From an uncultured Bacteroidia bacterium (GTDB lineage: Bacteria; Bacteroidota; Bacteroidia; Bacteroidales; F082), in NCBI GenBank assembly GCA_902802535.1, contig CADCML010000004.1:1-64000 (forward strand): a stretch of 64,000 bases of DNA. The letters run 5' to 3'. Under the pieces are notes generated by a model, which made no database searches, was not told the origin of the DNA, and was given only the letters and a program-made list of their open reading frames with translations. This document shows, one piece after another, positions 4,020-52,739 of the stretch; position 1 is the first letter of the stretch; each line of letters begins with the position of its first letter. Position numbers and translations under genes: made by a program.

Positions 4020-4031
4020 GATGGAAAAACT

Positions 4032-4327: not shown

Positions 4328-4402
4328 CTATTCCCTCACCACCTTATCCGAAAATACCATCCCGTCCTCCAAAGTGACGCGCAACAGATAAACACGGTGC
4401 GT
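4328..4402 (-). pseudogene. Fragment of a T9SS C-terminal sorting tail inside the repeat
   Basis: The minus strand translates as THRVYLLRVTLEDGMVFSD followed by KVVRE and a stop at 4330-4328. This matches the end of a type A T9SS sorting domain (pattern GvYlvrv...G....kkvv..). No gene reads into it: the preceding membrane-protein gene stops at 4406 in another frame. Degenerate versions of the same tail (VFSDKVVKE) are present in the copies near 6318-6350 and 7738-7760. The repeat therefore probably originated at the 3' end of a T9SS cargo gene. Confidence 0.6.
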
Positions 4403-4405
4403 ATT

Positions 4406-4807: not shown

Positions 4808-4819
4808 CCCTTTCTGTTT

Positions 4820-5130: not shown

Positions 5131-5165
5131 GTTCCAGCTGATTTGCAATCCGCTAAAGTTGAAAC
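5131..5165. repeat. Truncated, degenerate copy of the island palindrome
   Basis: GTTCCAGCTGATTTGCAATC followed by CGCTAAAG matches the first palindrome of the other copies, with one arm changed. The second palindrome is missing. It lies between the lipoprotein gene (ends 5175) and the toxin remnant (4820-5130), in the same relation to both as the full copies. Confidence 0.7.
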
Positions 5166-5174
5166 ATCGTTGAA

Positions 5175-5792: not shown

Positions 5793-5796
5793 AGTT

Positions 5797-6142
5797 TTAA
5801 TAATAAATACATTTGTAAATTGCAGTTGGAGGTTTTGTACCATTATTGAGATATTGGTACACACCTGTTGCAATCTCACGACCGATAATGCTGTAATTGT
5901 TAATGATGTTGTTTCTATTCGCTTCACTACTAATTCCACCCATTTCCAGTAAAATTCCAGCACTACCCTTAAAATACTTTAATACACCTATGGTTTTAGT
6001 GCTAGGAATAACTGAATTATTAGCAGGTGTCATAATGCTCAAATTTTCCATAATATAATTTCCTAATTCAATTGAATTTTCTTGTTGCCATTTTAGACCA
6101 TTTCCTCTTACTTCATATACAGCAAAAGCTTCTTCACTTGAA
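5797..6142 (-). pseudogene. 3' fragment of an N-acetylmuramoyl-L-alanine amidase (Amidase_3 type)
   Basis: About 115 codons survive. VLKYFKGSAGILLEMGGISS then ANRNNIINNYSIIGREIATG match the end of zinc amidases of the Amidase_3 family, where the glutamate of the LLE.GfI motif is catalytic. The N-terminal part carrying the zinc ligands is gone: sequence immediately 5' is the island repeat, with the junction at 6142/6143. The ATG at 6210 lies in the repeat and cannot restore the enzyme. This is the clearest toxin-like remnant of the island, and it is coupled to a lipoprotein gene. Confidence 0.65.
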
Positions 6143-6460
6143 CCCCGTTCCAGCGGATTTGCAATCCGCTGGCCTTGAAACGGGGATTTGCAATCCCCTT
6201 TTGTGCGCAATCAACTCTCATTTTTTTATCGTTCAGCCTACAAAGGTAATACTTTTTATTTAATTTCGTATGCTCTGCATTGAAAAACCATTGTCGGATG
6301 TTCCCTCCGTGAATCTCTATTCCTTCACAACCTTATCCGAAAACACCTTCCTCAAAAGTGATGCATATCGGCCTTGTAAGGCTGTCGTACCACGGCAGCC
6401 GCATGTCGTCATGGCTGCAAAGGCGGCTGCCATGGTGTGAGAGCCCTACATTGATGAAAG
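6143..6460. repeat. Composite island repeat, full copy (copy 4)
   Basis: Palindromes with arms CCAGCGGATT/AATCCGCTGG at 6150-6172 and GGGGATT/AATCCCC at 6182-6198, the AT-rich centre, a decayed T9SS tail, and the hairpin with arms GGCAGCCGC (6394-6402) and GCGGCTGCC (6423-6431). It links the downstream end of the membrane-protein gene at 6469 to the amidase fragment. This copy shows that the palindrome half and the hairpin half belong to one element of about 315 bp. Confidence 0.85.
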
Positions 6461-6468
6461 CATCATAA

Positions 6469-6870
6469 TTATAAAAAGTGAAGCGCAACTAAAAAACTGG
6501 GCAAAGAAAGCAGCACAAACAAAACTACTAAAATTCCTTTGATATGTTTTAGTTTTTCTTCTTTGTATTTCTGGTCCAATAAATCGAAATGGTTCTTGTC
6601 GTTTTTTAGAATCTCATCTGAAAACAAGTAGGCTATCGCAAAAGGAATATCTGTAATGATTACATACCACACATTCATTTTGATTCCAAAGAAAGAAAGA
6701 ATAAATGTCTCGATAACCAACAGATAACAAAGCAATGACAAAGATAGTATTAGTAAACCCCAGTCGTAGCAACTCAAGATTAATAAGTACCCCGGTGCTT
6801 CTTCTATCCCAAATATTTTCCGATAGAACCTTGTTATCCGATAATACATGTATTCTAATGTAGTTTTCAT
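6469..6870 (-). CDS. Small membrane protein, putative immunity protein
   Basis: 133 residues starting MKTTLEYMYYRITRFYRKIF, with three or four hydrophobic segments and a charged middle loop (DEILKNDKNHFDLLDQKYKE). The family is not recognised; architecture and N-terminal tyrosines resemble the other three membrane proteins of the island, though identity is low. It starts 6 bases after the stop of the remnant at 6877-7098 and is followed by the island repeat. The likely role, protecting against a membrane-acting toxin, is inferred from this repeated gene order. Confidence 0.6.
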   Translation of the reverse strand: MKTTLEYMYYRITRFYRKIFGIEEAPGYLLILSCYDWGLLILSLSLLCYLLVIETFILSFFGIKMNVWYVIITDIPFAIAYLFSDEILKNDKNHFDLLDQKYKEEKLKHIKGILVVLFVLLSLPSFLVALHFL

Positions 6871-6876
6871 TTTTTT

Positions 6877-7098
6877 CTATTTAAACGGTTGGTACTCAAG
6901 TAAACCCGGGTTCATTCCGTTTTTCATCATTTCTACCATCGTATTACCATACTGAAAAACAAGCTCTCTCCCACCAAAAAACCAAAACATGCTTATCCAT
7001 GTACCTCCAGGTAATAATCCAATTCCTCCAAACAAAACATCAGCACTGTACATTATTTTGTCATTGATTGAAGTAGAGGTATAACACTGGACACTGGT
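6877..7098 (-). pseudogene. 3' remnant of a toxin-like gene
   Basis: An open stretch without a start codon at its head reads INDKIMYSADVLFGGIGLLP, GGTWISMFWFFGGREL and ends GLLEYQPFK, stop at 6879-6877. A TGA at 7101-7099 blocks the frame upstream. The glycine-rich hydrophobic pattern resembles the remnant at 4820-5130. It lies just before a small membrane-protein gene, as in the other units. Confidence 0.45.
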
Positions 7099-7168
7099 TC
7101 ATGTCTTTTCGTTGCTGTTTCGATTTAATGAATGCTAAGACATTTGTAAACCTATAATTCTCTTTGGT

Positions 7169-7558
7169 TTAAGGAGAAACCTTCATAGGGATGAACAATT
7201 CAACAACAAATAGTATAAAAGGCACTACAGCAAAAAGGACGGCGCCAAGATTCTTCTTGCCTTTCCATTCAGTTTCATGAATCTCAAGGACTTTCTTGTA
7301 TCTTCTTTTGTAAAGGAACATGAAAGAAAAACCAATAACTGCTATAGTAGTAACAGACAATATACTATTTGAGTTATATGAATCAGGAGAACTACCTGGA
7401 ATAAAAAAGTAGTAAAAATTGAAAATGTCAGCAAAAACAAACATGAATACGAAACCCATAAACAACACTGTGGAAAATGGGGCAACGTCACCATTGCCTA
7501 CTTTGACTTGAAAGTAATAGTATTTGAAAAATAGGTATTCTAAAAATCTCATATTCAT
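7169..7558 (-). CDS. Small membrane protein, putative immunity protein (paralogue of 4406-4807)
   Basis: 129 residues, about four membrane segments, beginning MNMRFLEYLFFKYYYFQVKV like its paralogue and ending with a matching WKGKKNLGAVLFAV region; the centre differs strongly. As in the paralogue, residue 3 (ATG at 7552) has the better-spaced purine-rich leader. Only the last few codons of the toxin-like gene (GKIQY, stop) remain between it and the repeat at 7591, so here the partner is almost completely erased while the membrane protein is kept. Confidence 0.65.
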   Translation of the reverse strand: MNMRFLEYLFFKYYYFQVKVGNGDVAPFSTVLFMGFVFMFVFADIFNFYYFFIPGSSPDSYNSNSILSVTTIAVIGFSFMFLYKRRYKKVLEIHETEWKGKKNLGAVLFAVVPFILFVVELFIPMKVSP

Positions 7559-7590
7559 CCCTTTCTGTTTTCAATATTGGATTTTACCCC

Positions 7591-7862
7591 GTTCCAGCGG
7601 ATTTGCAATCCGCTGGCCTTGAAACGGGGATTTGCAATCCCCTTTTGTGCGCAATCAACTCTCATTTTTTAATCGTTCTGCCTGCAAAGGTAATACTTTT
7701 TATTTGATTTCGTATGCTCTGCATTGAAAAACCCCTTATCCGAAAACACCTTCCTCAAAAGTGATGCATATCGGCCTTGTAGGGCTGTCGTACCACGGCA
7801 GTCGCTTGTCGTCGTAGCTGCACAACGGCGGCTGCCATGGCAAGAGAACCCTACAAGGGTTA
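7591..7862. repeat. Composite island repeat, full copy (copy 5), at island border
   Basis: Palindromes at 7594-7616 and 7626-7642, the AT-rich centre shortened by a deletion around 7730, and the hairpin region 7767-7862. The hairpin arm is partly mutated (GGCAGTCGC). A further small hairpin, ACCCT/AGGGT, closes the element. It abuts the 3' end of the SusD gene, so SusD marks the border of the island. Confidence 0.8.
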
Positions 7863-7916
7863 TAACTTCAAGTGCTTGTTCATCTTGCCCTTGGGCAACA
7901 GCCCAAAAACCCTCAA

Positions 7917-31891: not shown

Positions 31892-31904
31892 ATTTTGTAA
31901 TTCA

Positions 31905-31937
31905 AGATTTCAGATATAAAATTTAAGATTCAAGATT
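31905..31937. repeat. AT-rich TTAAGATT microrepeat in operon gap
   Basis: TTCAAGATTTCAGAT, AATTTAAGATT and CAAGATTAT fill the 44-base gap between the methyltransferase and ACP genes; related to the elements at 28523 and 37658. Confidence 0.55.
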
Positions 31938-33033
31938 ATGATTTCTTGCAAACCATGATGCTGTGTCCGTAGCCTAAGTCATCATGAATCGTTTCGATTT
32001 CCAATCCTGCTGTTTCAACCAAACGTTTCAAATCGTCGCTATGATACATCTTGCTGTTTCCGTTGGCCATTGCTGTGAAATAAAGACTCGTCATCGTAAG
32101 GCAGAAGGCTGCTGTCTCGAAACGTTGACGATCCCAAAGGGTTTCCATGATATACAATCGGCTGTTGTCGTCCATGATTTTGGCAGCCCTGCTCACAATG
32201 CTGACAATCTCGTCCTCACCAAAGCAGTCGAGGAACTGACTCATCCAAATAATGTCGTAATACTTGTCGGTAGGGAAGCTCTGTGAGGCATCCAACAAGT
32301 TCATTTTATAGCCGTCAATACGGTCGGCACCCGGCTTTCCAGCAGTTTCACGGCGCATCATTTCCAATTGTTGGGGCAAGTCCACAATCGTCACCTTCAC
32401 ATCCTTATCGAACGCTACGCACTGTAAAGCCCAACGGCCTGTATTACCACCCACATCGAGCAAGGTCTTGGGTTTGTTGGCAAGCACCAGTTCCAATGCT
32501 TGTTGGAACGAGCTGTCGCTGTAGAAATGGTCGAAGCCAAACCAGCTCTTCTGTACCTGTGGCGGCAACTGCGAAAGTCCTTCGTACACCGTCGACCAAG
32601 GGCCAAAATGCTCCAAACCGGCTGGACGACCTTCTTTCAAGCTCTCCTCAAGATGGAACCATCCTTCATAGTTCACATCGTGACAAAACTCCGCATTTAC
32701 ATTGACGGCGGGGTCGGTTAGGAAGCACCAACCTGTCTTGCTCAATGTGTAGCGGTCGGTTTCAGGGTCAATCAACACCGTGCCTATGGACAGGCTTGCC
32801 TCTAACAACACCTTGGCGGCATAACCGCTGATGCGGGCTTCCTTGGCTATCTCAGCCTCTTTCATGCCATTTTTGCTGTTACGCAACATTTCCAGAATGC
32901 CGAACTTTTTCATCAACCGACTCACTTGGAACACAATCGGCCCCCAGGCAATCCATTCCGCTTTGACTTGTGCCTCGCGGGCGGTCAAATGCTCTTTGCT
33001 GTAGGCTTCTTTTAATGCAGGTGTAAGATGCAT
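31936..33033 (-). CDS. SAM-dependent methyltransferase (O-methyltransferase-like)
   Basis: 365 residues. An N-terminal winged-helix dimerisation region (EAEIAKEARISGYAAKVLLE) is followed by the SAM fold with motif I KTLLDVGGNTGRWALQ (about 195-205), acidic motif II VTIVDLPQQLEMM and WMSQFLDCFGEDE. The architecture matches the caffeate/hydroxyneurosporene O-methyltransferase group. In APE pathways a methyltransferase decorates the aromatic head group; whether it methylates carbon or oxygen here is not decidable by eye. It starts 5 bases after the ketosynthase stop. Confidence 0.85.
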   Translation of the reverse strand: MHLTPALKEAYSKEHLTAREAQVKAEWIAWGPIVFQVSRLMKKFGILEMLRNSKNGMKEAEIAKEARISGYAAKVLLEASLSIGTVLIDPETDRYTLSKTGWCFLTDPAVNVNAEFCHDVNYEGWFHLEESLKEGRPAGLEHFGPWSTVYEGLSQLPPQVQKSWFGFDHFYSDSSFQQALELVLANKPKTLLDVGGNTGRWALQCVAFDKDVKVTIVDLPQQLEMMRRETAGKPGADRIDGYKMNLLDASQSFPTDKYYDIIWMSQFLDCFGEDEIVSIVSRAAKIMDDNSRLYIMETLWDRQRFETAAFCLTMTSLYFTAMANGNSKMYHSDDLKRLVETAGLEIETIHDDLGYGHSIMVCKKS

Positions 33034-37630: not shown

Positions 37631-37657
37631 AATGCGAAGCATTCGATGAAGTCAATC

Positions 37658-37688
37658 TTAAATTTTGAATCTTAAATCTTAAATCTAA
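37658..37688. repeat. AT-rich AATCTTAAAT microrepeat before pgk
   Basis: Four tandem variants of AATCTTAAAT lie just upstream of the pgk start, the inverse of the TTTAAGATT motif at 28523 and 31905. Confidence 0.6.
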
Positions 37689-37693
37689 ATATT

Positions 37694-38967: not shown

Positions 38968-38993
38968 AAAGGCGGCTTCGGCTGCCTTTTTTT
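38968..38993 (+). terminator. Rho-independent terminator of pgk
   Basis: AAGGCGGC and GCTGCCTT pair (one G-T wobble) around a stable TTCG tetraloop, followed by seven T. Confidence 0.88.
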
Positions 38994-39080
38994 ACTTTCA
39001 AAAGTAAAAAATGACATTCATTTTTATTTCTCTAAAGTAAAAAATGAGTGTAAAATTTGTTTTTCTAAAGTAAAAAATCG
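38992..39080. repeat. Three 33-bp-spaced direct repeats overlapping the ATPase promoter
   Basis: The core AAAGTAAAAAAT begins at 39001, 39034 and 39067, exactly 33 bp apart (three helical turns). The first unit is also part of an inverted repeat, TTTACTTT/AAAGTAAA. The last two carry the extended form TCTAAAGTAAAAAAT. They lie across the -33/-7 region, as expected of an operator array. Confidence 0.8.
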
Positions 39081-39088
39081 TATTTTTG
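39056..39088 (+). promoter_or_regulatory. Promoter of the AAA ATPase gene
   Basis: TTTG at 39056-39059, 21-bp spacer, TATTTTTG at 39081-39088, 20 bases before the ATG. The third 33-bp repeat core occupies the spacer, so a bound protein would block RNA polymerase. Confidence 0.7.
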
Positions 39089-42202: not shown

Positions 42203-43321
42203 ATGTCAAAAACCATCGTAAATATCATCGACAAGAGCAATCCATTGCCGGCTTATCTGTTCACCAAGGAGTATTTCGAGGACGGCGACGAGCTGCTGTT
42301 CATCTCCGCCGCAGAGGAAACCAATTGCATACCAGTGTTAATCACCAGTGTTAATCAAAGCGTTGGATATTGACGAAACGCTTGTGAAAACCATCGTCGT
42401 CAATCGGTATCAGGACAAGTTCCTCTATGAGCGCATCTGCCGCACCATCAAGGGAAATCTGATTCCCAACAAGCAATATTACCTTAATCTTGCAGGAGGT
42501 AACCGTTATATGACGCTCTCGGTGCAGCATGTTTTCGAGGAGTTCAACACCTTGTTTTTCTACACGCAAACCCGTGAGAACCAAGTCGTAAAGACCATCT
42601 TCGACCATAGCATTTACGATGATGACGATGAGGTGTTCCCCATCAAGCACCGCATGACGCTGAAGGAGTATTTCGGCCTCTACGGACTTGAAAGCGATGT
42701 GGACCAACCGCGCAAACAGGTGAAGGAAACGGCATTTTCGCAGCATTTGTTCACTATGTTCTCGCAAAACATGTTCAGTCGTGGCGACTATCAGGTGATG
42801 GAAACCTTGCGTGAGAAGTACCGCAACTGGAAGTTCCTCATCATTTCGCAAGTCGAGAACCCCGACAAGGACTACATGACAGCCATCCCAAACCTCAGCA
42901 AGTTCTTGGAATTCATAGGCTTCGTTCCCGAAAGACCAGGATCGCTGCAAAACTATGAAATCGAATACCTTACGGGAGGTTGGTTTGAGGAATATGTCTA
43001 TGCCTTGATTAAAGAGGTGTTGCAACCCGATGATATTGCTATGGGCGTACACATCTCCAACGGCAAAATCCGCCACAACAATGCAAGACCGGCGTGACGA
43101 GCGAAAGTCTATTCAACGAGATTGTCTACAAGGTTTGCGCCTTGAAAGAAGTGCTGCTTGGCAGCGGCAACTCCTACATTTTCTCGCTCAAGAAAGACCA
43201 CAAGGGAAACTGGAAAAAGACCGCGAAATACATGGGCATCACCTTCTGCGACTGGCTCAACCTGACCAAGCCAGAGAACCTGAAGGCTCTTTTGAAGTCT
43301 ATGGATAAGATTGCTTCTTAG
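42203..43321 (+). pseudogene. Card1/Can2-like DUF1887 nuclease, broken by a 13-bp duplication and a core deletion
   Basis: Three reading-frame pieces. Piece 1 (42203-42331) starts MSKTIVNIIDKSNPLPAYLF. A 13-bp tandem duplication (42332-42344 and 42345-42357) shifts the frame; removing one copy restores EETNCIPVLIKALDIDETL exactly. Piece 2 (to about 43080) contains a CARF-like domain with YYLNLAGGNRYMTLS and the family hallmark EIEYLTGGWFEEYVYALIKE. At 43075-43084 the sequence jumps from GKIRHNN straight to CKTGVTSESLFNEIVYK in another frame, losing the ELDV...VIE part of the PD-(D/E)xK nuclease core. Relatives are cyclic-oligoadenylate-activated nucleases of type III CRISPR systems; no cas gene or array is nearby. 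The gene is inactive as written. Confidence 0.75.
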
Positions 43322-43324
43322 AAT

Positions 43325-43446
43325 AAAACTTGCAAAACCTTCAAAACCATAAGTAGCGGCACGCAACCGCTTGCCGCTGGAAAGCAGCCGGTTGGCGTGC
43401 TTTCCTTTGTTAAATAAAGTTTTGTCAGTTTTGTGGGTTTTGTGAT
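43325..43446. repeat. Structured TIR element, copy 1
   Basis: Left end AAAACTTGCAAAACCTTC and right end GTTTTGTGGGTTTTGTGA are imperfect inverted repeats. Inside are hairpin I (AGCGGCA 43355-43361 with TGCCGCT 43372-43378, loop containing CAACCG) and hairpin II (GGAAAGC 43379-43385 with GCTTTCC 43399-43405, loop AGCCGGTTGGCGT). The two loops are complementary (CAACCG/CGGTTG). Related copies lie at 44344 and 52574. The right end supplies the stop codon of ldcA. Confidence 0.8.
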
Positions 43447-44327
43447 AAAACAACAACATCCTGATTAATAATCATTTGAGTTGTAATCCCAAAGGTTAGA
43501 ACCCTGTTATCATCAAAATGCCCAGCAGGGAAACCGAAGCAAACAGGATAATCGTATTCAGAAACGGCCTCAGCAATCACTTCCTCGGCGGTTTGGCCAA
43601 AGGGATGCGTATTGTCTTTGATTTGGGTCAGGCCGCCCACGATGAGGCCTTTCAGATGAGCCAGTTTTCCAGCGCGTTTCAAACAGTGCATCATCCTGTC
43701 AATGTGGTAGATATACTCGTCAACTTCCTCTATGAAGAGGATTTTTCCGTCTGTTTCGGGAAAAATATCGGAGCCGTTCATACCCATTAGGACGGACAAG
43801 TTTCCTCCAACGATTTCACCTTCCATTTTTCCTAAACGATTCAACGGATTCGCGGGAAATTCATAATGCAAACATTTGCCCGTCAATGCGTTAAATAATG
43901 ACTGTTTGGCTACCTCTGTTTTGTTCGCAAAGTAAAAAGGCATGGACGAATGAAGCGAAGGAACGCCCAAACGTTGCAACTTGCCGTGAATGACCGTGCT
44001 ATCGCTGAAGCCCGCAATCCATTTCGGATGCTGCAAAAACTTGGTGAAATCCAACTTGTCAATGATACGGATGCCACCGTAGCCGCCACGAGCAAGCCAA
44101 ATGGCCTCAATTTCCTCATTGTCAAGGTATTCTTGAAAGACAGTCGCCCTAAAATCATCGTCGCCTGCAAAAATATGATGAACAGCGAAAAGCCTGTCAT
44201 CATAAATGGGGACAAATCCCTGCCCTTCCAACCACTGGATGGCAAACGACATCTCGTCGGGCGTGATGCAACGCGCCGGCGCTGCAATGGCCACTTTCGA
44301 ACCTTGTTTCAAATAGGGAATGGTCAT
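43425..44327 (-). CDS. ldcA: LD-carboxypeptidase (muramoyltetrapeptide carboxypeptidase, S66)
   Basis: 300 residues. Removes the terminal D-alanine from murein tetrapeptides during cell-wall recycling. Nucleophile serine in IAGFSDSTVIHG, glutamate in KILFIEEVDEYIYHIDRM, and histidine in CFGFPAGHFDDN form the Ser-Glu-His triad of family S66. The last residues (LSQNPQN) are encoded by the terminal inverted repeat of the adjacent element, which also provides the TGA. Similar elements flank the gene on both sides. Confidence 0.9.
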   Translation of the reverse strand: MTIPYLKQGSKVAIAAPARCITPDEMSFAIQWLEGQGFVPIYDDRLFAVHHIFAGDDDFRATVFQEYLDNEEIEAIWLARGGYGGIRIIDKLDFTKFLQHPKWIAGFSDSTVIHGKLQRLGVPSLHSSMPFYFANKTEVAKQSLFNALTGKCLHYEFPANPLNRLGKMEGEIVGGNLSVLMGMNGSDIFPETDGKILFIEEVDEYIYHIDRMMHCLKRAGKLAHLKGLIVGGLTQIKDNTHPFGQTAEEVIAEAVSEYDYPVCFGFPAGHFDDNRVLTFGITTQMIINQDVVVLSQNPQN

Positions 44328-44343
44328 GCTTCTTTTCTTTTTG

Positions 44344-44493
44344 TCACAAAACCATCAAAACTTTCAAAACCCTAATCTGCAACGTCACCCAACCAGGTTC
44401 CGTTGCAAAGCCGACTTGTCGGCTTAGGGAAAAGGAGCCAGTTGGCGACTTTTCTTGTCCAAAATAGTTTTGTTGGTTTTGTAAGTTTTGTGA
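44344..44493. repeat. Structured TIR element, copy 2
   Basis: Left end TCACAAAACCATCAAAAC and right end TTTTGTAAGTTTTGTGA pair as inverted repeats of about 27 bp. Hairpin I: GCAACG 44379-44384 with CGTTGC 44401-44406, loop with CCAACC. An extra hairpin, AAGCCGAC/GTCGGCTT, occupies 44408-44425. Hairpin II: GAAAAG 44429-44434 with CTTTTC 44449-44454, loop GAGCCAGTTGGCGA. Loop complementarity CCAAC/GTTGG is kept. Confidence 0.85.
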
Positions 44494-44498
44494 TGCCA

Positions 44499-46013
44499 TT
44501 ATTCCTTAATAATTTCGTCTTCGTCCAAAGCCTCGCTGTCATATTTTACTTCCTTGCCTTGTTCGTAGGTGACAGTAAAATAGAGTTCGCCAGTTTCCAG
44601 ATATTTCTTCCAATCGCCGTGCTTCACACCTGCAGCATAGCTTTGAATTTCACGTAATTTGCCGTTGTCATAATAGAATAGATGCTCACCGTCAGGATAA
44701 CCAGCATTAAAAGTACCTCGGAAAGCCATTTTGTCGTTGTCGTAATAGGAAACCCATTCGCCCACTTGCTTGTCGTTGCGATATTCACCCTCCGAACGCA
44801 TGTCGCCAATTTCTTCCTTCCATTTGCCGTTTTTCATGCCATCGAAATAGGTGCCGCTCACGATGAGGTTGCCCTTGGCATCGTATTCCTTGTATGGACC
44901 ATTGTGCTGCCCTTTGTAGAATTGTTCCTCAATCTGTTTCTGTCCGTTGTCGTGATACCAAATCCAAACACCATCAGGTTCTCCTTCCTTGTAGTTACCC
45001 ACTTCTTGAAGCTTACCGTTATGATAGTAGAACTTCCATTCGCCTGAGCGCAGACCATCAACAAACATACCTTCGGCACGCAAAGTGCTGTCAGCAAAGA
45101 ATTCCTTGTATTCGCCCTGACGTTTGCCATCAGTACCCACAATGCCCTCACCCACCAATACACCTTTCTTGTAAGTCTGTGAATTAATGACATTGCCTTC
45201 CTCATCGAACTCGCGCCAAATACCTTCACGCTTGCCATCGCGGAACGAAGCCTCGCGCCGCACCCGACCATTGGGATAATATTCATGCTGCACGACAAGT
45301 GGCTTCATGTCGCTTTCAAGCACTTGCTCCACATCATCAATGTATTTGGTAATCTTTTTCAAGTTGCCTTTTTCGTCGTATTCCTTGTAAAAACCTTCGC
45401 GCAATCCGTGCTTGTAGTAACATTCGGTATGCAGGCTCCAGTCATCGAAAAATGTTTTCCAATAGCCATGACGCTTGCCTTCACTGTCGTAACGGTTCAA
45501 AACCTCACGGGTCATAATGAAGCCTTTGCGATAGGTGATGATTTCACGCAAAAGTCCCGTGGTGTCAAAAACAGGCGAAATGCCTTCTTCCAAACCATTT
45601 TTGAAGGTTATAGTCTGTATGAGACGACCCTTTCGATCATAGCGGTGACCTTCGCCTTGTTTCACATCGTTGACAAATGGTTCCTCCAAAATGTCCTCTT
45701 TACCATAGGTAAAGCGCGAACCGTTTTTCAAATCATTCTTATAATTGATAATCAAAGTGGTGTCGCCAGATTCCGAAAAAAACATCCAAGTGCTGTCCAA
45801 AAGAAAATCCGTGCGCTTTCCAATGGACTTCAGTTGACCATTCTCGTAATAGGTCTTCCAAAGGCCGTCGGGCTTGCCGTCGCGTAGTGTCCCTTCACTC
45901 GACAATTGTCCATCAGGATATGTATATGTCTGATACTCAGTCTGCGAACAAACTTTGTGACAAAACAACATACTCAATATGGCTATCCCTATAATGCTTA
46001 CGATTCGTTTCAT
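44499..46013 (-). CDS. Exported MORN-repeat (YwqK-like) protein
   Basis: 504 residues with a signal peptide (MKRIVSIIGIAILSMLFCHK). About fifteen MORN-variant repeats follow, each with the pattern G.w..YY..G.l...g.y..G (for example GEWKFYYHNGKLQEVGNYKE). Bacteroidota have many such proteins, automatically named toxin-antitoxin YwqK family antitoxin; that name has little functional basis. It is likely periplasmic or on the cell surface. Expressed alone from a -7 box at 46040-46033. Confidence 0.85.
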   Translation of the reverse strand: MKRIVSIIGIAILSMLFCHKVCSQTEYQTYTYPDGQLSSEGTLRDGKPDGLWKTYYENGQLKSIGKRTDFLLDSTWMFFSESGDTTLIINYKNDLKNGSRFTYGKEDILEEPFVNDVKQGEGHRYDRKGRLIQTITFKNGLEEGISPVFDTTGLLREIITYRKGFIMTREVLNRYDSEGKRHGYWKTFFDDWSLHTECYYKHGLREGFYKEYDEKGNLKKITKYIDDVEQVLESDMKPLVVQHEYYPNGRVRREASFRDGKREGIWREFDEEGNVINSQTYKKGVLVGEGIVGTDGKRQGEYKEFFADSTLRAEGMFVDGLRSGEWKFYYHNGKLQEVGNYKEGEPDGVWIWYHDNGQKQIEEQFYKGQHNGPYKEYDAKGNLIVSGTYFDGMKNGKWKEEIGDMRSEGEYRNDKQVGEWVSYYDNDKMAFRGTFNAGYPDGEHLFYYDNGKLREIQSYAAGVKHGDWKKYLETGELYFTVTYEQGKEVKYDSEALDEDEIIKE

Positions 46014-46032
46014 TTGCTTTCTAAATCCGCGT

Positions 46033-46040
46033 CAAAATTA
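46033..46040 (-). promoter_or_regulatory. -7 box of the MORN-repeat gene
   Basis: The minus strand reads TAATTTTG 20 bases before the ATG. No clear -33 element. Confidence 0.45.
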
Positions 46041-46570
46041 GACATTTTTCGCCGAATAGCGACATCCTCTCCACAAGATGCCGAAAATTTGCCTTCCGAC
46101 TTATGAACACCTTTATCAATATCATTTCTTTTTTTAGATTTTAAGATTGATATTAATTAAGGTTTGTTATGGATGTTGATAAGCTTGTGAATTGGTTGAA
46201 AACTTTTCAATAAAGTTCTTGCATTAATGGTTTTCGATTTGAGGCATCATTTTCGGAAAAAATTAAGGGTTTATTTTTCAGTCGGATTAATGCGTTTTCG
46301 GATACCCGTTGAAAAATGAAAAATCGGGTAAAAATGACCTCGAATTTTTGAAATAATGTTGATTTTGGTGTCCAGATAGGTCAAAAAAGTGTTGATTAAT
46401 TCTTCCCTGATTTTTATGCACCCGAATGAAAAAGTTATCAACAAAATTTCTGTTGATAACTCATGATTTTATTGATTATCAAAATATTATTCAAAAATTG
46501 TAGACTTTTTGTAAGCGGATAAACTGTTCAGAAATAATGGGATATAACCCTAACGAACAGCGAAAATATG

Positions 46571-46578
46571 TACTTTTG
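46571..46578 (+). promoter_or_regulatory. -7 box of rpiB-lutB
   Basis: TACTTTTG, 27 bases before the rpiB ATG; -33 box not evident. A TTATCAACA motif lies between it and the start codon. Confidence 0.45.
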
Positions 46579-46604
46579 CCAATCGAATTATCAACAGCGC
46601 AAAA

Positions 46605-47060
46605 ATGGAACAGATTATCCCCATAGCGAGCGACCATGGCGGCTTCGAAATGAAGCAATTTTTGATTGAAAAACTGAAGGAATCCGGCTATACAGTCGAC
46701 GATTTTGGCACTTATAGTAATGAAAGTGTCGACTATCCTGACTTCATTCATCCCTTGGCTTCAGCCATCGGGATGGGAAACTATCCTTTGGGTATCATTT
46801 TATGCGGCAGTGGCAACGGTGCCCAAATGACAGCCAACCATCATCACAACGTGCGCGCCGCCTTATGTTGGAATGTGGAATTGGCCAAACTGGCCCGTCA
46901 GCACAACAATGCCAATATCCTTGCCTTGCCTGGACGTTTTATTTCGAATGAGTTGGCTTGGGAGATGGTGCAAGCTTTTTTGAGCACTGATTTCGAAGGT
47001 GGTCGTCATACGAGAAGAGTTGATAAAATTGAATCCATTGAAAATCAAGACAATGAATGA
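46605..47060 (+). CDS. rpiB: Ribose-5-phosphate isomerase B
   Basis: 151 residues. Interconverts ribose-5-phosphate and ribulose-5-phosphate. N-terminal IPIASDHGGFEMKQFLIE, active-site cysteine in LGIILCGSGNGAQMTANHH, and the HNNANILALPGRFIS segment are the RpiB/LacAB signature. Its end overlaps the start of lutB by 8 bases. Confidence 0.95.
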   Translation: MEQIIPIASDHGGFEMKQFLIEKLKESGYTVDDFGTYSNESVDYPDFIHPLASAIGMGNYPLGIILCGSGNGAQMTANHHHNVRAALCWNVELAKLARQHNNANILALPGRFISNELAWEMVQAFLSTDFEGGRHTRRVDKIESIENQDNE

Positions 47061-48417
47061 ACCTAATATAGAATTCAAACAGGGTTGCGAAAAGGCTTTT
47101 GACGAGGAACATTGGCAGAAAATCAACTACAGCACGGGTTGTTTTGAGAGCAGTTTTGCCAAAGGCAAGGTGAATTACCGCAATCTCGACTTGGAAAAAC
47201 AACGTGCCTACACTTTGCGCAACAAATCGATGTTGGGTTTGGAGAAACTGTTGGTCGATTTTGAGACGCATTTCAGCGAAAATGGCGGCAAAGTGCTTTG
47301 GGCTCGCAATGCCGACGATGCCTTGACCATGATTTTCGACCTCATCTGCAAGGAGAAAGCCAACGCCATCATGCGCTCCAACTCCATGGTGCTCGATGAA
47401 ATCGGACTCAACGGTTTCTTGGAGCGGAAAAACGTCCGCGTAGTGGAAACCGAAGTGGGACGTTTCATTTTGCATGAAGGCCAGCAGAAACCCTATCATC
47501 CTTTGGCACCTTCCATCCACCTCTCGAAAGAGGAGAACAATGCCATTCTGACGGGACAATTCAAGTTGAAACCCGACAGCTCCGCCAAGCAGATGATCAA
47601 TTTTGTGCGTCATGAGGTGACTATTGAATCAAAAGAAGTGCCTATTTGCATCACAGGGGCCAACTTCCTGCTTTCCGATGTAGGTGGCGTGGTGTTGACG
47701 GAAAACGAAGGCAACATCTTGAAATCCACTTCCATAGCAAAGGTTCACATCGTTGTGGCTGGCATCGCCAAAATGGTGCCGAGCATCGATGATTTGAGCG
47801 TGTTGTTGCCATTGTTGTCGCTTCATGCCTCGGGACAGAGCATGACGGCCTGCAACACCATCACTTTCGGTCCGGCCAAGACGGGCAACGGTCCGGAGCA
47901 GGTGTATGTCATCTTATTGGACAACAACCGCTCGGAGCTGCTTTCGCACGAGAAACAACGCAAGGTGATGTCGTGCATCCATTGTGGTGCATGTGTGAGT
48001 GTGTGTCCCGTGTACAAGAACATAGGCGGCTATTCTTACGCCACCAAACATATCGGTCCGATAGGCACGGTGATGACGCCCTTGATGGAAGGTTTGGAAG
48101 ACTACAATTACCTGAATTCCGCCTGTTCGCTTTGCAGAAAGTGTGTTGAGATTTGTCCTGTCAAGATACCGTTGGACGACTTGATTATTGAAAACCGCCA
48201 TTTGGCCATCATGAAAAAGACCAACAATTCAAAGTACGATGCCTTGCTGAGAGCCATGATTTGGCACTGCAAGTCGCGGAAAAAGATGGACAGTCCGCTG
48301 TTTTTCAAAAAGTTGGAATTGAAACGCCTTTTTGGACTGCTATGGGGCAACAACAGACCCTTGCCTGAGTTTGCTTCCAAGTCGTTCAGCCAGCAATGGA
48401 AGGAAAGGAATCTTTAA
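47053..48417 (+). CDS. lutB: Lactate-utilisation iron-sulfur protein LutB/LldF
   Basis: 454 residues from ATG 47053; an upstream in-frame ATG at 46999 lies inside rpiB. LutB-type N-terminal domain (IMRSNSMVLDEIGLNGFLE, VGGVVLTENEGN) and two 4Fe-4S clusters (CIHCGACVSVCPVYK; CSLCRKCVEICPVK). It is part of the LutABC complex that oxidises L-lactate to pyruvate. lutA and lutC are not adjacent, although LutC may have been split elsewhere. Its 3' end overlaps the convergent reverse transcriptase gene by 32 bases. Confidence 0.9.
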   Translation: MNEPNIEFKQGCEKAFDEEHWQKINYSTGCFESSFAKGKVNYRNLDLEKQRAYTLRNKSMLGLEKLLVDFETHFSENGGKVLWARNADDALTMIFDLICKEKANAIMRSNSMVLDEIGLNGFLERKNVRVVETEVGRFILHEGQQKPYHPLAPSIHLSKEENNAILTGQFKLKPDSSAKQMINFVRHEVTIESKEVPICITGANFLLSDVGGVVLTENEGNILKSTSIAKVHIVVAGIAKMVPSIDDLSVLLPLLSLHASGQSMTACNTITFGPAKTGNGPEQVYVILLDNNRSELLSHEKQRKVMSCIHCGACVSVCPVYKNIGGYSYATKHIGPIGTVMTPLMEGLEDYNYLNSACSLCRKCVEICPVKIPLDDLIIENRHLAIMKKTNNSKYDALLRAMIWHCKSRKKMDSPLFFKKLELKRLFGLLWGNNRPLPEFASKSFSQQWKERNL

Positions 48418-49606
48418 ACTTATAGTATTCGTTCACCAGACTTTTGTAGCCCAATTCTTTAAGTCTTTCGTAATCGACTTTATAGTTGATTTTGTTGTGT
48501 CTTCCTGTGTTTAGGAAGCGAATGTTTTGTTGCAAGTAATGATCTATCTCCTTTAGACCCTCTGTCTGATTGATGACCGGAAAGAACCATCGTGACCAGG
48601 TAAGTGTTTCAGGATCATCGCTCTCAAAAAACTTGCGGTTGAAATAATTGATGAGCGCTTTCATTGCCTTCTCCGAATCCAAGCCTTTCTTGTTTTTCCA
48701 GCGTAACAAGGCTCGGGCTTGGCGCGAAATCTTACCTTTCATCTTCTTCTTGGTGGCTTCCGAGATATCGATGTCATGGCCATGGCATTTGAACCCCAAA
48801 AATTCGTAGGCTTCATTGGGAGAATACACTTTTTCCTTAGAGGAATTCACCTCCAACTGGTATTTTTTTAGGAAACCAAGCAATGTGGTTTTGTACTGTT
48901 CAAGCGTCTCAAAATCAGGCGCAAACAAGATGATGTCGTCGGAATAGCGGGCGTAAACGATACCTGCATTGTGAAAATGCCAATCGACTTCTTTTAGATA
49001 AACGTCGGCCAAAAAAGGAGCTGTGGGTGTACCGGCCATCACGCCATGTTGTTCTTGGGTGACTACCTCATTGATTAATATATTGGGATTGGTCAGTAGG
49101 TTTTCGAAAAATTGATAAAGCAGTGGGTCGTCGGCGAGGGTTTCTTTCAGGATGGGTAGCAGAATAGGGATGGAAATAGAATTGAAATAGTCGTGGATGT
49201 CGAGTTTGTAGGCCCACATCTTTTGCTTGCGTACGGCATTGTTGATTTTGAAAACAGCATCATGGGCTTTCAAGCCACGGCGAAAAGCATAACAATTGGG
49301 TGCAAAATGGTCGTCATAGCGGTAAAGCTGGTGGGAAATAAGCTTCAACAATAGTATTTCATCAGGTGGAAAACTATACACCACACGTTTTTTGCTTGTT
49401 CCCATCTTGTTGATGATTTTCTTTTGTGGAATGCCCAAATCTTCGCCTTTTGCGACTTTCGTAGCTAAAGGCAAATATTGCTCATATCCAACAAAATCGT
49501 CAGCCTCTTCAAATTCACGCCAATTGAAACGTCCTTTTTTGAGGCGGTAAGCCAAAAACCCTTCCCAAACCTCTTGCTGGGTTAGTTGTGTAATGATGCT
49601 TTCCAT
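48386..49606 (-). CDS. Free-standing reverse transcriptase of unassigned group
   Basis: 406 residues from ATG 49606 (MESIITQLTQQEVWEGF); the longer frame from 49717 reads through structured upstream DNA. RT motifs: KLDIHDYFNSI (catalytic aspartate 136), HGVMAGTPTAPFLADVYL, and YARYSDDIILFA (YxDD at 221-224), then EFLGFKCHG. There is no maturase/HNH domain as in group II introns, no VTG motif of retron RTs, no SQ motif of diversity-generating retroelements and no fused Cas1 or nitrilase. It could belong to one of the unknown groups that include defence RTs, but this cannot be settled by eye. A small unknown gene precedes it. Confidence 0.85.
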   Translation of the reverse strand: MESIITQLTQQEVWEGFLAYRLKKGRFNWREFEEADDFVGYEQYLPLATKVAKGEDLGIPQKKIINKMGTSKKRVVYSFPPDEILLLKLISHQLYRYDDHFAPNCYAFRRGLKAHDAVFKINNAVRKQKMWAYKLDIHDYFNSISIPILLPILKETLADDPLLYQFFENLLTNPNILINEVVTQEQHGVMAGTPTAPFLADVYLKEVDWHFHNAGIVYARYSDDIILFAPDFETLEQYKTTLLGFLKKYQLEVNSSKEKVYSPNEAYEFLGFKCHGHDIDISEATKKKMKGKISRQARALLRWKNKKGLDSEKAMKALINYFNRKFFESDDPETLTWSRWFFPVINQTEGLKEIDHYLQQNIRFLNTGRHNKINYKVDYERLKELGYKSLVNEYYKFKDSFPSIAG

Positions 49607-49756
49607 GGGAAAAAGGGAAAAGGGGAAAATTTTGACGTGGCACATTGCCACGAGACGAGAGGGTACCTTGTCAGGTTGCCTGCAAAACCGAGAAATGAAT
49701 GTCAAGGCTGCCTCCATCGCAGGCGCGGCATTGCCGCATCCCCTTTTCCTGTCTTT
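49607..49756 (-). other. Intergenic segment with four consecutive hairpins, possible RT-associated RNA
   Basis: Between the unknown gene (stop 49757) and the RT start. Hairpins: GCGGC/GCCGC at 49725-49737, CTGC/GCAG at 49708-49722, CAGG/CCTG at 49672-49682 and CGTGGC/GCCACG at 49636-49652. The first and last share a GGCAATG core on the minus strand. RT systems often use a neighbouring structured RNA as template or primer; that role here is speculative. Confidence 0.4.
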
Positions 49757-50230
49757 TTAGTTCAAAAACTTGTAAATGCGATTGACTACATAGTCCTTTT
49801 TATTGGGCAACTGGGTGTAGAAGTAAATATAGGGAATGCCTATTTTCTTGGCATACATTCTCGAAATCAAGTACTTGACATTGATTTCGTGACAATGACC
49901 TTTGCCAATCATCACTACGCCCTTGATGCCACTTGGTGTCTCCAAGACAAAATTGTAGGGCTGGCCCCATTCTGCTTTATAAGCTTGCTTGGGACGATCC
50001 ACGTAGAGTTTGAACTCGTCATTGGCATAACCTACTATGTCTTGCACGGGCACATCTTCTCTAAAAGAGTATTGTGCAAAGTCTGTAATCAGGATTTCCC
50101 TGAAATAAGCTTTCCATTCCTCATCGGTGCGTTCGGGAACAACAGGTCTGACAGGCTGCTGCTGTTGAGGTTTCGAATCTTCTTTTACAGAACTAATGAT
50201 ACTTTTGATGATGTTTACTAGTAAACCCAT
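49757..50230 (-). CDS. Uncharacterised 157-residue protein upstream of the RT
   Basis: No family recognised. The N-terminus is helical and polar with a glutamine run (MGLLVNIIKSIISSVKED, then PQQQQPVRP). The rest looks like a mixed alpha/beta domain (EFKLYVDRPKQAYKAEWGQP, VVMIGKGHCHEINVKYLIS, IPYIYFYTQLPN). The pattern of an acidic residue, a beta hairpin and K/H residues loosely recalls nuclease-like folds, but I cannot assign catalytic residues. It lies 150 bases before the RT gene on the same strand, so the two may be co-transcribed. Confidence 0.65.
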   Translation of the reverse strand: MGLLVNIIKSIISSVKEDSKPQQQQPVRPVVPERTDEEWKAYFREILITDFAQYSFREDVPVQDIVGYANDEFKLYVDRPKQAYKAEWGQPYNFVLETPSGIKGVVMIGKGHCHEINVKYLISRMYAKKIGIPYIYFYTQLPNKKDYVVNRIYKFLN

Positions 50231-50259
50231 AATTCGATGGTTTTTTGATTATTATGGCG

Positions 50260-50267
50260 CAAAGGTA
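50260..50267 (-). promoter_or_regulatory. -7 box of the unknown gene-RT unit
   Basis: The minus strand reads TACCTTTG 30 bases before the ATG at 50230. No -33 TTTG. Confidence 0.5.
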
Positions 50268-50370
50268 ATAAAATGTTTTAATTTAGGTAGCTTTTAGCAT
50301 AAAATTGCAATATTTTCAATATGAAAGTTGAGATACCCCTAACTTTGCTCATCTACTTAAAATTCTTTTC

Positions 50371-50406
50371 AAAAAAACCCCGCCACGGCAATCGCAGCGG
50401 GGAAAA
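50371..50406 (-). terminator. Rho-independent terminator of the EF-G-like gene
   Basis: On the minus strand CCCCGC and GCGGGG pair, followed by seven T, about 30 bases after the stop codon. Confidence 0.88.
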
Positions 50407-50437
50407 AATGCAATACTTATGAAAAAATACAAAAACT

Positions 50438-52462
50438 TTATTCTTCTTCTTTTTGGCTTTCTTCGTACTCCTTCAGCAGGCGGTTCTGTACGTCGGTAGG
50501 CACTTGCTGGTATTCGGCATACTTCATCGTGAAGGTGCCACGGCCAGAGGTCAACGAGCTGAGGGTGGTCGAATAGCGGTCCATCTCGGCCAACGGCACC
50601 TTGGCGTGGATGGTTTGGTAGTTGTGGTCGCTGTCCATGCCCATGACGATGGCGCGGCGGCCTTGCAGGTCGGTCATCACCGAACCCATGAGGTCGGCGG
50701 GCATTCGCACGTCAAGGTCGTAGATAGGCTCCATGATCTTCGGGCCAGCGTTCTTGAAGGCTGCGCTGAAGGCCATACGACCGGCAATCTTGAAGGCCAT
50801 TTCGTTGGAGTCGACCGGGTGCATCTTACCATCGTAGATGTAGCAGATGATGTCGCGGGCGTAAGAACCTGTCAACGGACCTTGCTCCAAGCGCTCGTTC
50901 ACACCTTTCAGGATGGCGGGCATAAAGCGGGCATCGATGGCACCACCGACGACGCAGTTGGCGAAGATGAGCTTACCGCCCCAAGGCAGTTCGTACTCTT
51001 GCTTGTCACGCACCTGCAATTCGCTCGGGTCGGTGTAACCCTCGAAGTAAGGAGCCAGTTGCATGTGCACCTCACCGAACTGACCGCTACCACCGGACTG
51101 TTTCTTGTGACGGTAGCTGGCACTGGCGCTCTTGGTGATGGTTTCACGATACGGAATCTTCGGCGCAGTGGTCTCGATGGCGAGTTTGTACACGTTGTCG
51201 AAGTACCATTTCAGCGTGTTGAAGTGATATTCGCCCTGGCATTGCAGGATGTTCTGGCGCAGCTCGCGCGACATGCCGCTGATGACGGTCGGGTCGGTCT
51301 TGTGCATATCATTGAGGATGCTGCCAAGCTTTTCGTCTTCCTGTGAGTTGACGGCTTTGACGGCAATCGAGAAAATCGGAGTCGGGAACGGAATCTCTTC
51401 AAAGGTGGCTTCGGCGGCCTTGGCATCGACCAAAGAATCACCGATGCGGCCGTCCTTCAGTTTGATGGTGCAGATGATGTCGCCAGCGTTGACTTTCTCG
51501 ACTTCTTCACGGTTCTTGCCGCGGAAGACGAGCAACTGTGACAAACGTTCCTTGTTGCCCGAGCGTGGGTTGATGAGGTCTTGGCTCTTGCTGACCGTGC
51601 CACCATAGACGCGCATCCAAGCCACATCGCCGAGGTTTTGCTCAGTCGTGACCTTGAAGATGAACAGGGCGGTTGGGTCGTCGTTGCTGTTGTGGAACTC
51701 TTGTCCGTTCTTGGCTTTGATGGCCGGCATGTCGGCAGGCGACGGGCAGGCGTTAATGAGGAATTCCATCAGACGGGTGACACCCACGCCACGTTTGGCA
51801 GCGCCGCAAATGACGGGGAACATCTCACGGTTGACGATACCGAGGTGGATACCGCGTTCCATGTCCTCTTCACTCAGGGTCATTTCTTCAAAGAACTTCT
51901 CCATCAGGGCCTCTTCGCCTTCGGCAGCGTGCTCGATGAGGTTGTTGTGCAGCTCTTCGGCCTTAGCCATTTCTGCGGCGGGGATGTCCTGGATTTCAGG
52001 GGCTCCGTTGCCGTTCTTGAAGACCAACATCTTCATCATGATCAAGTCGATGACGGCGTTGAAGTCTTCACCGGCGTTGACGGGATATTGGATGGGCGTA
52101 ACCTTGTCGCCGAAATATTCTTTCAGTTCGCGGATGGTGTTGTCGTTGACGGTGCAAACGGCCATGTCGGCTGCATAGAGGCACGAAACGATGTCGCCCG
52201 AGAAGTCGCTGAAACCAGGGGTATCCAAGATGTTGATTTTCTTGTCGTTGTAGATGGTGTACAACATGGAAGCGTTCACCGAAATCTGACGTTCCATTTC
52301 GATGGGACGGTAGTCGGAAACGGTGTTTTTCTCGTCGGTGCTACCTTTTCTGTTGATGAGCTTGCCTTCGAAAAGCATGTTTTCAGCAAGCGTGGTCTTA
52401 CCCGATTTAGCTGCGCCGATGAGGGCAACATTACGGATGTCTTTTGTCTGGAATTCCTTCAT
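50438..52462 (-). CDS. EF-G-like translational GTPase lacking the G4 region
   Basis: 674 residues, a paralogue group of elongation factor G common in Bacteroidota. P-loop GAAKSGKTTLAEN (17-27), G3 ILDTPGFSDF (79-87), domain II-V features (YRHKKQSGGSGQFGEVHMQL, YDGKMHPVDSNE, PLAEMDRYSTTLSSLTSGRG) are intact. Between AVCTVN (about 106) and DNTIRELKEYFGDK the usual GVEVGT...NQLD segment of roughly 35-40 residues is absent, in frame. It contains G4 (N-[KQ]-x-D), which gives guanine specificity, so the protein probably cannot bind GTP normally. Either a real in-frame deletion or an assembly loss. Confidence 0.85.
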   Translation of the reverse strand: MKEFQTKDIRNVALIGAAKSGKTTLAENMLFEGKLINRKGSTDEKNTVSDYRPIEMERQISVNASMLYTIYNDKKINILDTPGFSDFSGDIVSCLYAADMAVCTVNDNTIRELKEYFGDKVTPIQYPVNAGEDFNAVIDLIMMKMLVFKNGNGAPEIQDIPAAEMAKAEELHNNLIEHAAEGEEALMEKFFEEMTLSEEDMERGIHLGIVNREMFPVICGAAKRGVGVTRLMEFLINACPSPADMPAIKAKNGQEFHNSNDDPTALFIFKVTTEQNLGDVAWMRVYGGTVSKSQDLINPRSGNKERLSQLLVFRGKNREEVEKVNAGDIICTIKLKDGRIGDSLVDAKAAEATFEEIPFPTPIFSIAVKAVNSQEDEKLGSILNDMHKTDPTVISGMSRELRQNILQCQGEYHFNTLKWYFDNVYKLAIETTAPKIPYRETITKSASASYRHKKQSGGSGQFGEVHMQLAPYFEGYTDPSELQVRDKQEYELPWGGKLIFANCVVGGAIDARFMPAILKGVNERLEQGPLTGSYARDIICYIYDGKMHPVDSNEMAFKIAGRMAFSAAFKNAGPKIMEPIYDLDVRMPADLMGSVMTDLQGRRAIVMGMDSDHNYQTIHAKVPLAEMDRYSTTLSSLTSGRGTFTMKYAEYQQVPTDVQNRLLKEYEESQKEEE

Positions 52463-52523
52463 TTTTTATCTAACTAGCTAATTATTAAATATTTATTTCT
52501 CGCGAAGAATACTATAATGGACG

Positions 52524-52553
52524 CAAAATTACGAAAAAACCTAATATCCTCAA
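52524..52553 (-). promoter_or_regulatory. Promoter of the EF-G-like gene
   Basis: The minus strand has TTG at 52553-52551, 19-bp spacer, and TAATTTTG at 52531-52524, 61 bases before the ATG. Confidence 0.55.
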
Positions 52554-52573
52554 CCAAAATATATATATTATTG

Positions 52574-52739
52574 TCACAAAACATTCAAAACCCACAAAAC
52601 TTTTACTAAGAAAGTCGCCAACTGGCTCCTTTCTAACGCATCCTTTGGTTGCAGTTCAAGCATGACAACGACAACTCGGTTGGGAGTCGTTGTCATGCAT
52701 TATAATAATTTGGTTTTGAAAGTTTTGTAGGTTTTATGA
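52574..52739. repeat. Structured TIR element, copy 3 (inverted relative to copies 1 and 2)
   Basis: Ends TCACAAAACATTCAAAAC and AGTTTTGTAGGTTTTATGA form the terminal inverted repeats. Hairpin II: AGAAAG 52609-52614 with CTTTCT 52629-52634, loop with GCCAACTGGC. Hairpin I: GCATGACAACGAC 52660-52672 with GTCGTTGTCATGC 52686-52698, a perfect 13-bp stem, loop with CGGTTGGG. The loops keep the CCAAC/GTTGG complementarity. It occupies most of the gap between the EF-G-like and PfkB kinase genes. Confidence 0.85.

Follow-up and report, generated by a model that had tools for sequence, protein, structure and literature searches.

In the available portions of the respective reports, several kinds of small repeat element are described that share features with the sequences treated here. 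Miniature inverted-repeat transposable elements (MITEs) such as BrickBuilt of Porphyromonas gingivalis are short and non-coding, carry terminal inverted repeats (TIRs), and are dispersed in intergenic positions with copies present or absent among relatives (PMC4596501). Repetitive extragenic palindromic (REP) sequences and REPINs, which go with a REP-associated tyrosine transposase (RAYT), comprise two imperfect inverted hairpins in many intergenic copies (PMC3733652; PMC3116915), and in the TIRtron/TIRYT arrangement a TIR family also surrounds the gene for a mobility-type protein (PMC3733652). The intervening sequence of Coxiella 23S rRNA is a small selfish element with TIRs and one small open reading frame (ORF), of the S23 type, together with a 28-bp terminal stem and an adjoining short tandem repeat of three GACAGAT heptamers; the function and origin of such elements are called unclear (PMC4990558). 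Arrays of the short tandem unit TAACTGA mostly adjoin start codons in one genome, include Bacteroidetes among their hosts and are suspected of horizontal spread, with no evident mechanism of spread given in the available part of the report (PMC4679880). The repeat family described here has three copies (A to C) in a 64,000-nucleotide stretch of an uncultured Bacteroidia bacterium (contig CADCML010000004.1, positions 1 to 64,000; hereafter the window), and a longer version of it, found elsewhere in the same genome, encloses a gene for a GxxExxY protein.

The three copies lie at the positions and in the orientations given by an initial annotation of the window (Table 1). The copies without an ORF that were listed are 125–201 bp long with inverted arms at both ends. 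Each end is composed of three 6-bp CAAAAC boxes at a pitch of 9 bp, separated by variable spacers of 3 bp (at times 4 bp), and the boxes are inverted at the opposite end; the inverted ends of the initial annotation are real, and what was read there as a single TIR sequence of about 27 bp resolves into the three boxes. A scan of the window with the arm pattern CAAAACNNNCAAAACNNNCAAAAC, allowing up to 3 mismatches, returned six matches that are exactly the six arms, with 0.19 matches expected and no more than two found in 100 shuffles. Inside the arms lie two hairpins. Both have an outer stem. In hairpin I this leads through a small internal loop to a variable inner stem of about 3 bp that encloses AACC; in hairpin II the inner stem is GCC/GGC and encloses GGTT or AGTT (GCC-RGTT-GGC). 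The family is dispersed in its own genome (G000; 3.7 Mb in 139 contigs, 85% complete and 6.3% contaminated), where at least 32 copies are present and the arm pattern has 28 forward and 26 reverse matches at up to 2 mismatches; a reversed pattern is useless as a control here because the arm pattern is the same read backwards. A covariance model of the family (R1) has matches in 45 of the 99 genomes of the genus, its own included. Since at most 33 candidates were scored per genome, the R1 copy counts are lower bounds, and the search filters are strict enough that weak copies may be missed. A phage collection gave no match to positions 43300–44500 of the window.

The occupancy of orthologous sites differs among related genomes. 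At the site of copy A, G307 has the element and G295, G289 and G314 lack it. The site of copy B is occupied in G277 and G314 and empty in G286, G280, G282, G307, G295 and G289, and that of copy C is occupied in G307 and G277 and empty in G286 and G282. In G281, sites B and C (L154 and L275–L276) hold arms-only derivatives from which the hairpins have been lost. Flank identity at the orthologous sites is 74–94% for the window copies and reaches 96–97% at site C when the G307 copy is compared with G282 and G286. Mobility of the elements is well supported by this presence and absence at orthologous sites. Site A of G286 (L149) and G280 (L150) contains array-like sequence with AAATCTTTC-like boxes facing GATTT boxes, which may be a member of a different family occupying this junction.

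Insertion context was examined for 42 elements (L001–L030 and L207–L236) with both neighbours within 500 bp, using mechanically called ORFs and including some sites that look orthologous. Of these elements, 31 sit between co-directional genes; the upstream stop codon is within 10 bp of one element end in 28 of the 31 cases, and the next start codon lies 7–17 bp past the other end in 19. Orientation relative to the genes is varied (++ 19, -- 12, +- 7, -+ 4). All copies examined are located between protein ORFs and none in 23S rRNA. The repeats are short non-coding sequences with TIRs, their copies are dispersed and polymorphic, and a longer protein-coding relative has the same ends, as expected of MITEs; that they are a mobile MITE-like element is very likely.

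This longer relative is a 650-bp copy on contig C55 of G000. It shares the arms and hairpins of the short copies, and a single ORF of 144 amino acids lies between the hairpins. The version around the GxxExxY gene, about 640 bp long, had not been noticed in the initial annotation. The ORF is identified as a GxxExxY protein by TIGR04256 (128.3 bits, cut-off 35) and PF13366 (123 bits, cut-off 22). The initial annotation had named identity with an IS200/IS605-type element as a finding that would overturn it; the ORF belongs to PF13366 and is not a TnpA (Y1) transposase, which sets the family apart from that group. Judged by this ORF, the closest named relatives belong to the rumen Bacteroidales, 'bacterium F082' being one example. 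Both arms enclose the ORF in each of the 11 named loci where it is at least 80% identical; ten of these loci share one site and the eleventh lies elsewhere. Within the genus the ORF is encoded by 19 genomes (65–100% identity, own included). Both arms are present in 18 of them, and in the remaining one, G269, the left arm is intact and the right arm degenerate. Including the G269 site, the ORF-bearing element occupies three sites, two of which precede what we take to be a menA-like and an rfbA-like gene. G250 contains two ORF copies that are not counted as transposition because both precede the same gene, and an assembly mixture is possible in this genome. The ORF is under strong purifying selection (median dN/dS 0.043; 38 of 78 pairs with 0.05<dS<1). 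A cognate ORF (E <1e-60) is encoded by 19 of the 45 element-bearing genomes versus none of the 54 others (Fisher p 2e-8, uncorrected for kinship).

The AlphaFold model of the GxxExxY ORF has a mean pLDDT of 94. In a Foldseek comparison with solved structures, only Cas4 SSO0001 (4ic1, four chains) is matched at E <0.001 (E 1.3e-4, TMq 0.52), followed at E 0.002–0.007 by Cas4 Pcal_0546, an Argonaute-associated Cas4-family protein, LHK-Exo, lambda exonuclease and AddAB, and by RecE at E 0.03. The best matches among viral models include a PD-(D/E)XK nuclease of a Halogranum tailed virus (E 1e-9). A sequence search of the solved structures gave one match that is not meaningful (E 0.48). Residues D71, E81, K83, Q95 and Y99 are invariant in 36 aligned rows, so that the PD-(D/E)XK catalytic residues D71, E81 and K83 are kept in 36 of 36. 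From its modelled fold, GxxExxY is predicted to be a single-domain PD-(D/E)XK nuclease of Cas4/RecB type. It has the RecB-type nuclease fold in common with Cas4, but the four cysteines that hold the Cas4 iron–sulfur cluster are missing; the ORF contains no cysteine and hence no Cas4-type cluster.

These observations can be joined in a proposed mechanism. The basic unit would be an end-box made of three CAAAAC boxes and a hairpin with a GGTT tip on one strand, two such end-boxes facing each other in every element, and the form taken as complete has the same ends around one GxxExxY ORF. The GxxExxY protein would bind its own family's tandem boxes. Once the DNA is single-stranded, the end hairpins would mark the element ends, and the nuclease would make or trim cuts there. 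By way of such a single-stranded intermediate, the element may be copied or moved into a gap between stop and start codons, where operons would tolerate it. The ORF-less repeats would then be non-autonomous MITE-like derivatives of a GxxExxY-encoding element with the nuclease involved in their movement, a proposal that could about equally well be right or wrong. Taken alone, the assignment of GxxExxY as the mobility protein of the family falls just short of an even call.

The flanks of GxxExxY genes from other families bear on this proposal, as do those of S23 genes (PF05635), which encode four-helix proteins. A sample of 149 genomes from the order includes 82 with GxxExxY genes, and S23 genes occur in 42 of 60 genomes. 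Local inverted repeats between the two flanks are significant (z >4) at 22 of 36 GxxExxY loci and at 23 of 30 S23 loci, or 22 of 29 without L191, whose score is unsafe because one flank holds 100 N. The GxxExxY sample comprises 36 of 37 loci (L128 has a short flank), with only L085 from the 11 close named loci and with L069 of G000 added; L073, L074, L197 and L199 are omitted from the S23 sample. The controls reach the same threshold at 0 of 26 loci for genes presumed to encode LD-carboxypeptidase (26 of 29, omitting L109, L111 and L112; this name, like rhlE, is assumed from sequence likeness) and at 3 of 43 further ORFs, including one located between copies A and B. Three of eight plasmid GxxExxY loci have significant inverted flanks, from Bernardetia (z 7.7), Bacteroides finegoldii (7.8) and Gemmatirosa (24.1). 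The S23 genes (L070, L071, L072 and L178–L206) often stand between inverted arrays of 7–8 bp tandem units, mostly with a unit of their own at each locus, and a period is significant (z >4) at 24 of 27 loci, with a lag of 7, 8 or 14 in 22 of the 24 (27 of 32 loci, five short ones omitted and L191 included). TAACTGA was considered as the unit of these arrays and rejected, as it is tandem at none of the 32 loci. When four arm-unit labels are placed on a tree of 58 GxxExxY proteins (6 of the 11 close named loci; L128, L287, L288 and L290 omitted), 13 changes are required versus 25.7 for shuffled labels, and none of 200 shuffles is as low. The CAAAAC rows fall into a single clade (support 98/87), and the CACRGAG label requires 5 changes versus 10.3 (0 of 500 as low).

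Three further GxxExxY loci were inspected by eye. Two additional genes of G000 (L066 and L068) appear to have a complete ORF-less element of another family on each side in a composite-like arrangement, with units near AGAATTNTG and CACAGATTN. In Sphingomonas parapaucimobilis (L288, 1489–1917), a GxxExxY gene with a 9-bp-like array on one side is separated from its neighbours fabD and fabG by 33 and 2 bp.

The main competitor holds that the repeats are mobile and that GxxExxY is a passenger or a domesticated nuclease, the elements being moved by another activity such as replication or repair by the host at the hairpins. A number of results weigh against a role for the nuclease and several of them favour this alternative. 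The cognate ORF is lacking in 26 of the 45 element-bearing genomes, among them G286, which is 100% complete, and G051 (99% complete, 11 copies) is without any GxxExxY match. In most relatives the ORF copy stays at one site, as would be expected of a domesticated gene, and is under strong purifying selection. To our knowledge, a lone Cas4-like nuclease is not known to carry out transposition. No target-site duplication is visible at the three window sites, where the intergenic flanks are too diverged for one to be excluded. Beyond the family, 14 of 36 GxxExxY genes have no significant inverted flank, and neither do 5 of the 8 plasmid loci, those of Fusobacteria, Persicobacter, Treponema, Prevotella nigrescens and Sphingomonas, the last showing by eye an array on one side. 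A period at any lag is detected at 12 of 35 GxxExxY loci versus 6 of 26 controls, and the lag-9 period, at 7 of 35 versus 0 of 26, is significant in few, so that the lag counts support only in part the idea that GxxExxY arms generally have a 9-bp period. The CACRGAT label is hardly clustered on the protein tree (7 changes versus 8.6; 27 of 500 shuffles as low), and common descent alone could yield at least part of the agreement between arm labels and tree. Set against the passenger explanation are the absence of the ORF from all 54 genomes of the genus without R1 matches, its position between the same ends at three sites, arm units that follow the protein tree, and the flank association seen in other families and at three of the eight plasmid loci. 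We regard a passenger or domesticated role as rather unlikely.

Movement of the repeats as REP/REPIN-like elements by a RAYT, a Y1 tyrosine transposase, of the same genome is improbable. The two inverted hairpins are REPIN-like and G000 encodes five Y1_Tnp genes (L059–L063), but none of these five loci has a facing arm pair (up to 4 mismatches each) or the exact hairpin II apex, three of them show single weak arm matches (3–4 mismatches), and by eye the RAYT genes are flanked by other palindromes, such as GCGGAGGTTGCACCACCGC beside L063. Neither a GTAG nor a CGTC tag was seen by eye at the hairpin foot of the aligned copies. Mobilisation by these RAYTs was rejected on the absence of facing arms and apex, and the family is not equated with a known REP element, the second identity by which the initial annotation could have been overturned.

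In the initial annotation the repeats were interpreted as a folded molecule, either RNA or single-stranded DNA, whose two loops make a kissing contact, and a covariance model was proposed as the check. All of the stems that it quoted are found in the window copies. The alignment holds 23 compact copies drawn from 39 matched rows, in which both strands and alternative pairings of the arms are represented. Core rows fold more stably than their dinucleotide shuffles (mean z -3.3; z < -2 in 25 of 27 rows, three of the 27 being trims of one copy, L046). At positions -2/-3 of the hairpin I inner stem, 24 copies have 33 Watson–Crick pairs when the last AACC or AACA before hairpin II is taken in each, versus a shuffle mean of 15.7 and a maximum of 26 in 10,000; a 26-copy variant in which the best-paired AACC is picked gives 39 pairs versus a mean of 17.9 and a maximum of 31. 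RNAalifold predicts 24 pairs, 5 of them with double changes, and misses the outer stem of hairpin I on its alignment. Stems I and II change in pairs, which supports selection for folded hairpins, as the initial annotation had proposed. For the loops, 55 correctly oriented rows were tallied after 13 wrong-strand rows of 68 were dropped. Loop II GGTT is combined with loop I AACC in 38 rows and with another loop I call in 8, some of which are merely alternative folds, and loop II AGTT occurs in 8 rows, never with a matching AACT in loop I. Odd loops that break the complementarity are GATT with TAACT in L036 (260–400) and AAAC in L015; L040 has AACA. AAC/GTT complementarity is retained in most copies, and no compensated loop I/loop II change is present among the 55 rows. 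The kissing contact was rejected on the uncompensated loop changes. A simpler account is suggested by the anatomy: the ends would be inverted copies of each other, each with a triple box and a GGTT-tipped hairpin, and the loops would be complementary because of this inversion. On the bottom strand, hairpin I carries the GGTT tip that hairpin II carries on the top strand.

A structured regulatory RNA or single-stranded DNA with kissing loops is consequently very improbable. The stable, covarying hairpins and the frequent operon-junction position just upstream of start codons would suit it, but besides the uncompensated loop changes, presence varies at orthologous sites, the neighbouring genes are unrelated, G281 retains arms without hairpins at two sites, and there is no fixed orientation relative to genes. 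What remains of the earlier interpretation is the selection on the hairpins, while mobility, the 9-bp box pitch and the ORF-bearing form shift the reading to a mobile element. At the gathering score no Rfam family matches the copies, the window containing only RT-5 and tRNA. An integron attC site was also considered; its consensus core sites RYYYAAC and GTTRRRY are not found, the conserved hairpin II reading GTTGGC by eye.

The window encodes a reverse transcriptase (48389–49717, minus strand; PF00078) that is below the cut-off for the matched group II, Drt and retron models. Its 5' end is overlain by the Rfam RT-5 RNA (49623–49728, minus strand), and homologues with E up to 1e-60 are present in 24 of the 99 genomes of the genus, its own included. 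Retro-mobilisation by this enzyme, with its coding region taken as 48389–49603, is suggested by its physical proximity to the copies. It is scarcely credible and was rejected because its distribution does not track the element (15 of 45 element-bearing versus 9 of 54 other genomes at the same E limit, p 0.06; absent from G286, G307, G277 and G281, each with 32–33 scored copies).

Table 1. Positions of the repeat copies and their parts in the window
Feature	Coordinates	Strand	Basis
Copy A, whole element, 125 bp, ends GAATAAAAC / GTTTTGTGA	43321..43445	+	
Copy A left arm, three CAAAAC-type boxes	43324..43347	+	pattern match, 1 mismatch
Copy A hairpin I, loop AACC	43355..43378	+	fold
Copy A hairpin II, apex GCC-GGTT-GGC	43379..43405	+	fold
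Copy A right arm, three inverted boxes	43419..43442	-	pattern match, 0 mismatches
Copy B, whole element, 150 bp	44344..44493	+	
Copy B left arm	44347..44370	+	pattern match
Copy B hairpin I	44378..44407	+	fold
Copy B additional hairpin AGCCGAC/GTCGGCT, not general in family	44409..44424	+	
Copy B hairpin II, apex GCC-AGTT-GGC	44429..44454	+	fold
Copy B right arm	44467..44490	-	pattern match
Copy C, whole element, 166 bp, minus-strand element	52574..52739	-	
Copy C right arm (element on minus strand)	52577..52600	+	pattern match
Copy C hairpin II, apex GCC-AGTT-GGC	52609..52634	-	fold
Copy C hairpin I, long stem, loop region with CCAACC	52660..52698	-	fold
Copy C left arm (element on minus strand)	52713..52736	-	pattern match, 1 mismatch

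Other repeats are present in the window. Two AATCTTA-related heptamer arrays were noted by eye at 31900–31938 and 37654–37689. The second of these ends a few bases before an ATG at 37694, which resembles published start-codon heptamer arrays, and the ORF starting there is presumably phosphoglycerate kinase-like. Just downstream of this ORF are three 33-bp direct repeats with a AAAGTAAAAAAT core (38988–39086). A cluster of direct repeats at 3448–7870 is composed of a 209-nt unit in three copies, an 89-nt unit in three copies and a palindrome-bearing 41-nt unit in four copies.

The literature searched, which excludes preprints and covers few subscription journals, gave no description of the repeat family or of GxxExxY within a mobile element, and the available portions of two reports on GxxExxY state no mobile-element context (PMC8934634, PMC12085832). 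Compared with the systems described at the outset, and within the portions of those reports, the repeats are unlike the BrickBuilt MITEs in their triple-box TIR at a 9-bp pitch, their conserved twin hairpins and the lack of a visible target-site duplication, and their longer relative encodes a Cas4-like nuclease instead of a transposase (PMC4596501). They differ from REP/REPIN sequences in having box arms outside the hairpins and in that the RAYT loci of the host bear other palindromes (PMC3733652). The gene enclosed by a TIRtron encodes an HUH tyrosine transposase, whereas the gene enclosed here encodes a predicted PD-(D/E)XK nuclease (PMC3733652). The 23S rRNA intervening sequences lie in rRNA and are excised by RNase III, whereas the elements here lie between protein genes and their ORF is GxxExxY; the tandem arrays at the S23 loci in turn parallel the GACAGAT heptamers of the intervening sequence (PMC4990558). 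TAACTGA arrays are nearly all direct and have no inverted partner or ORF, and their unit and spacing differ from those found here (PMC4679880). The gene carried by the long version suggests that the GxxExxY nucleases, common and so far unexplained, are part of a class of mobile DNA about which little is known. More broadly, and here we incline slightly towards doubt, GxxExxY and S23 proteins may be the signatures of a superclass of minimal mobile elements that lack a transposase, one that is widespread and as yet undescribed. Such elements would have inverted tandem-box ends (units of about 9–11 bp for GxxExxY and 7–8 bp for S23) with a box particular to each protein lineage, would sit in the stop/start junctions of operons, and would include the 23S rRNA intervening sequences and the published heptamer arrays in the same class. 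Through the inverted tandem-box arrays, the common but unexplained GxxExxY and S23 genes gain a testable role in DNA mobility, with a possible bearing on the origin of the 23S rRNA intervening sequences. In this genus, GxxExxY is tied to a polymorphic repeat family, and if a Cas4-like nuclease does move these elements, they would represent mobility without a classical transposase.

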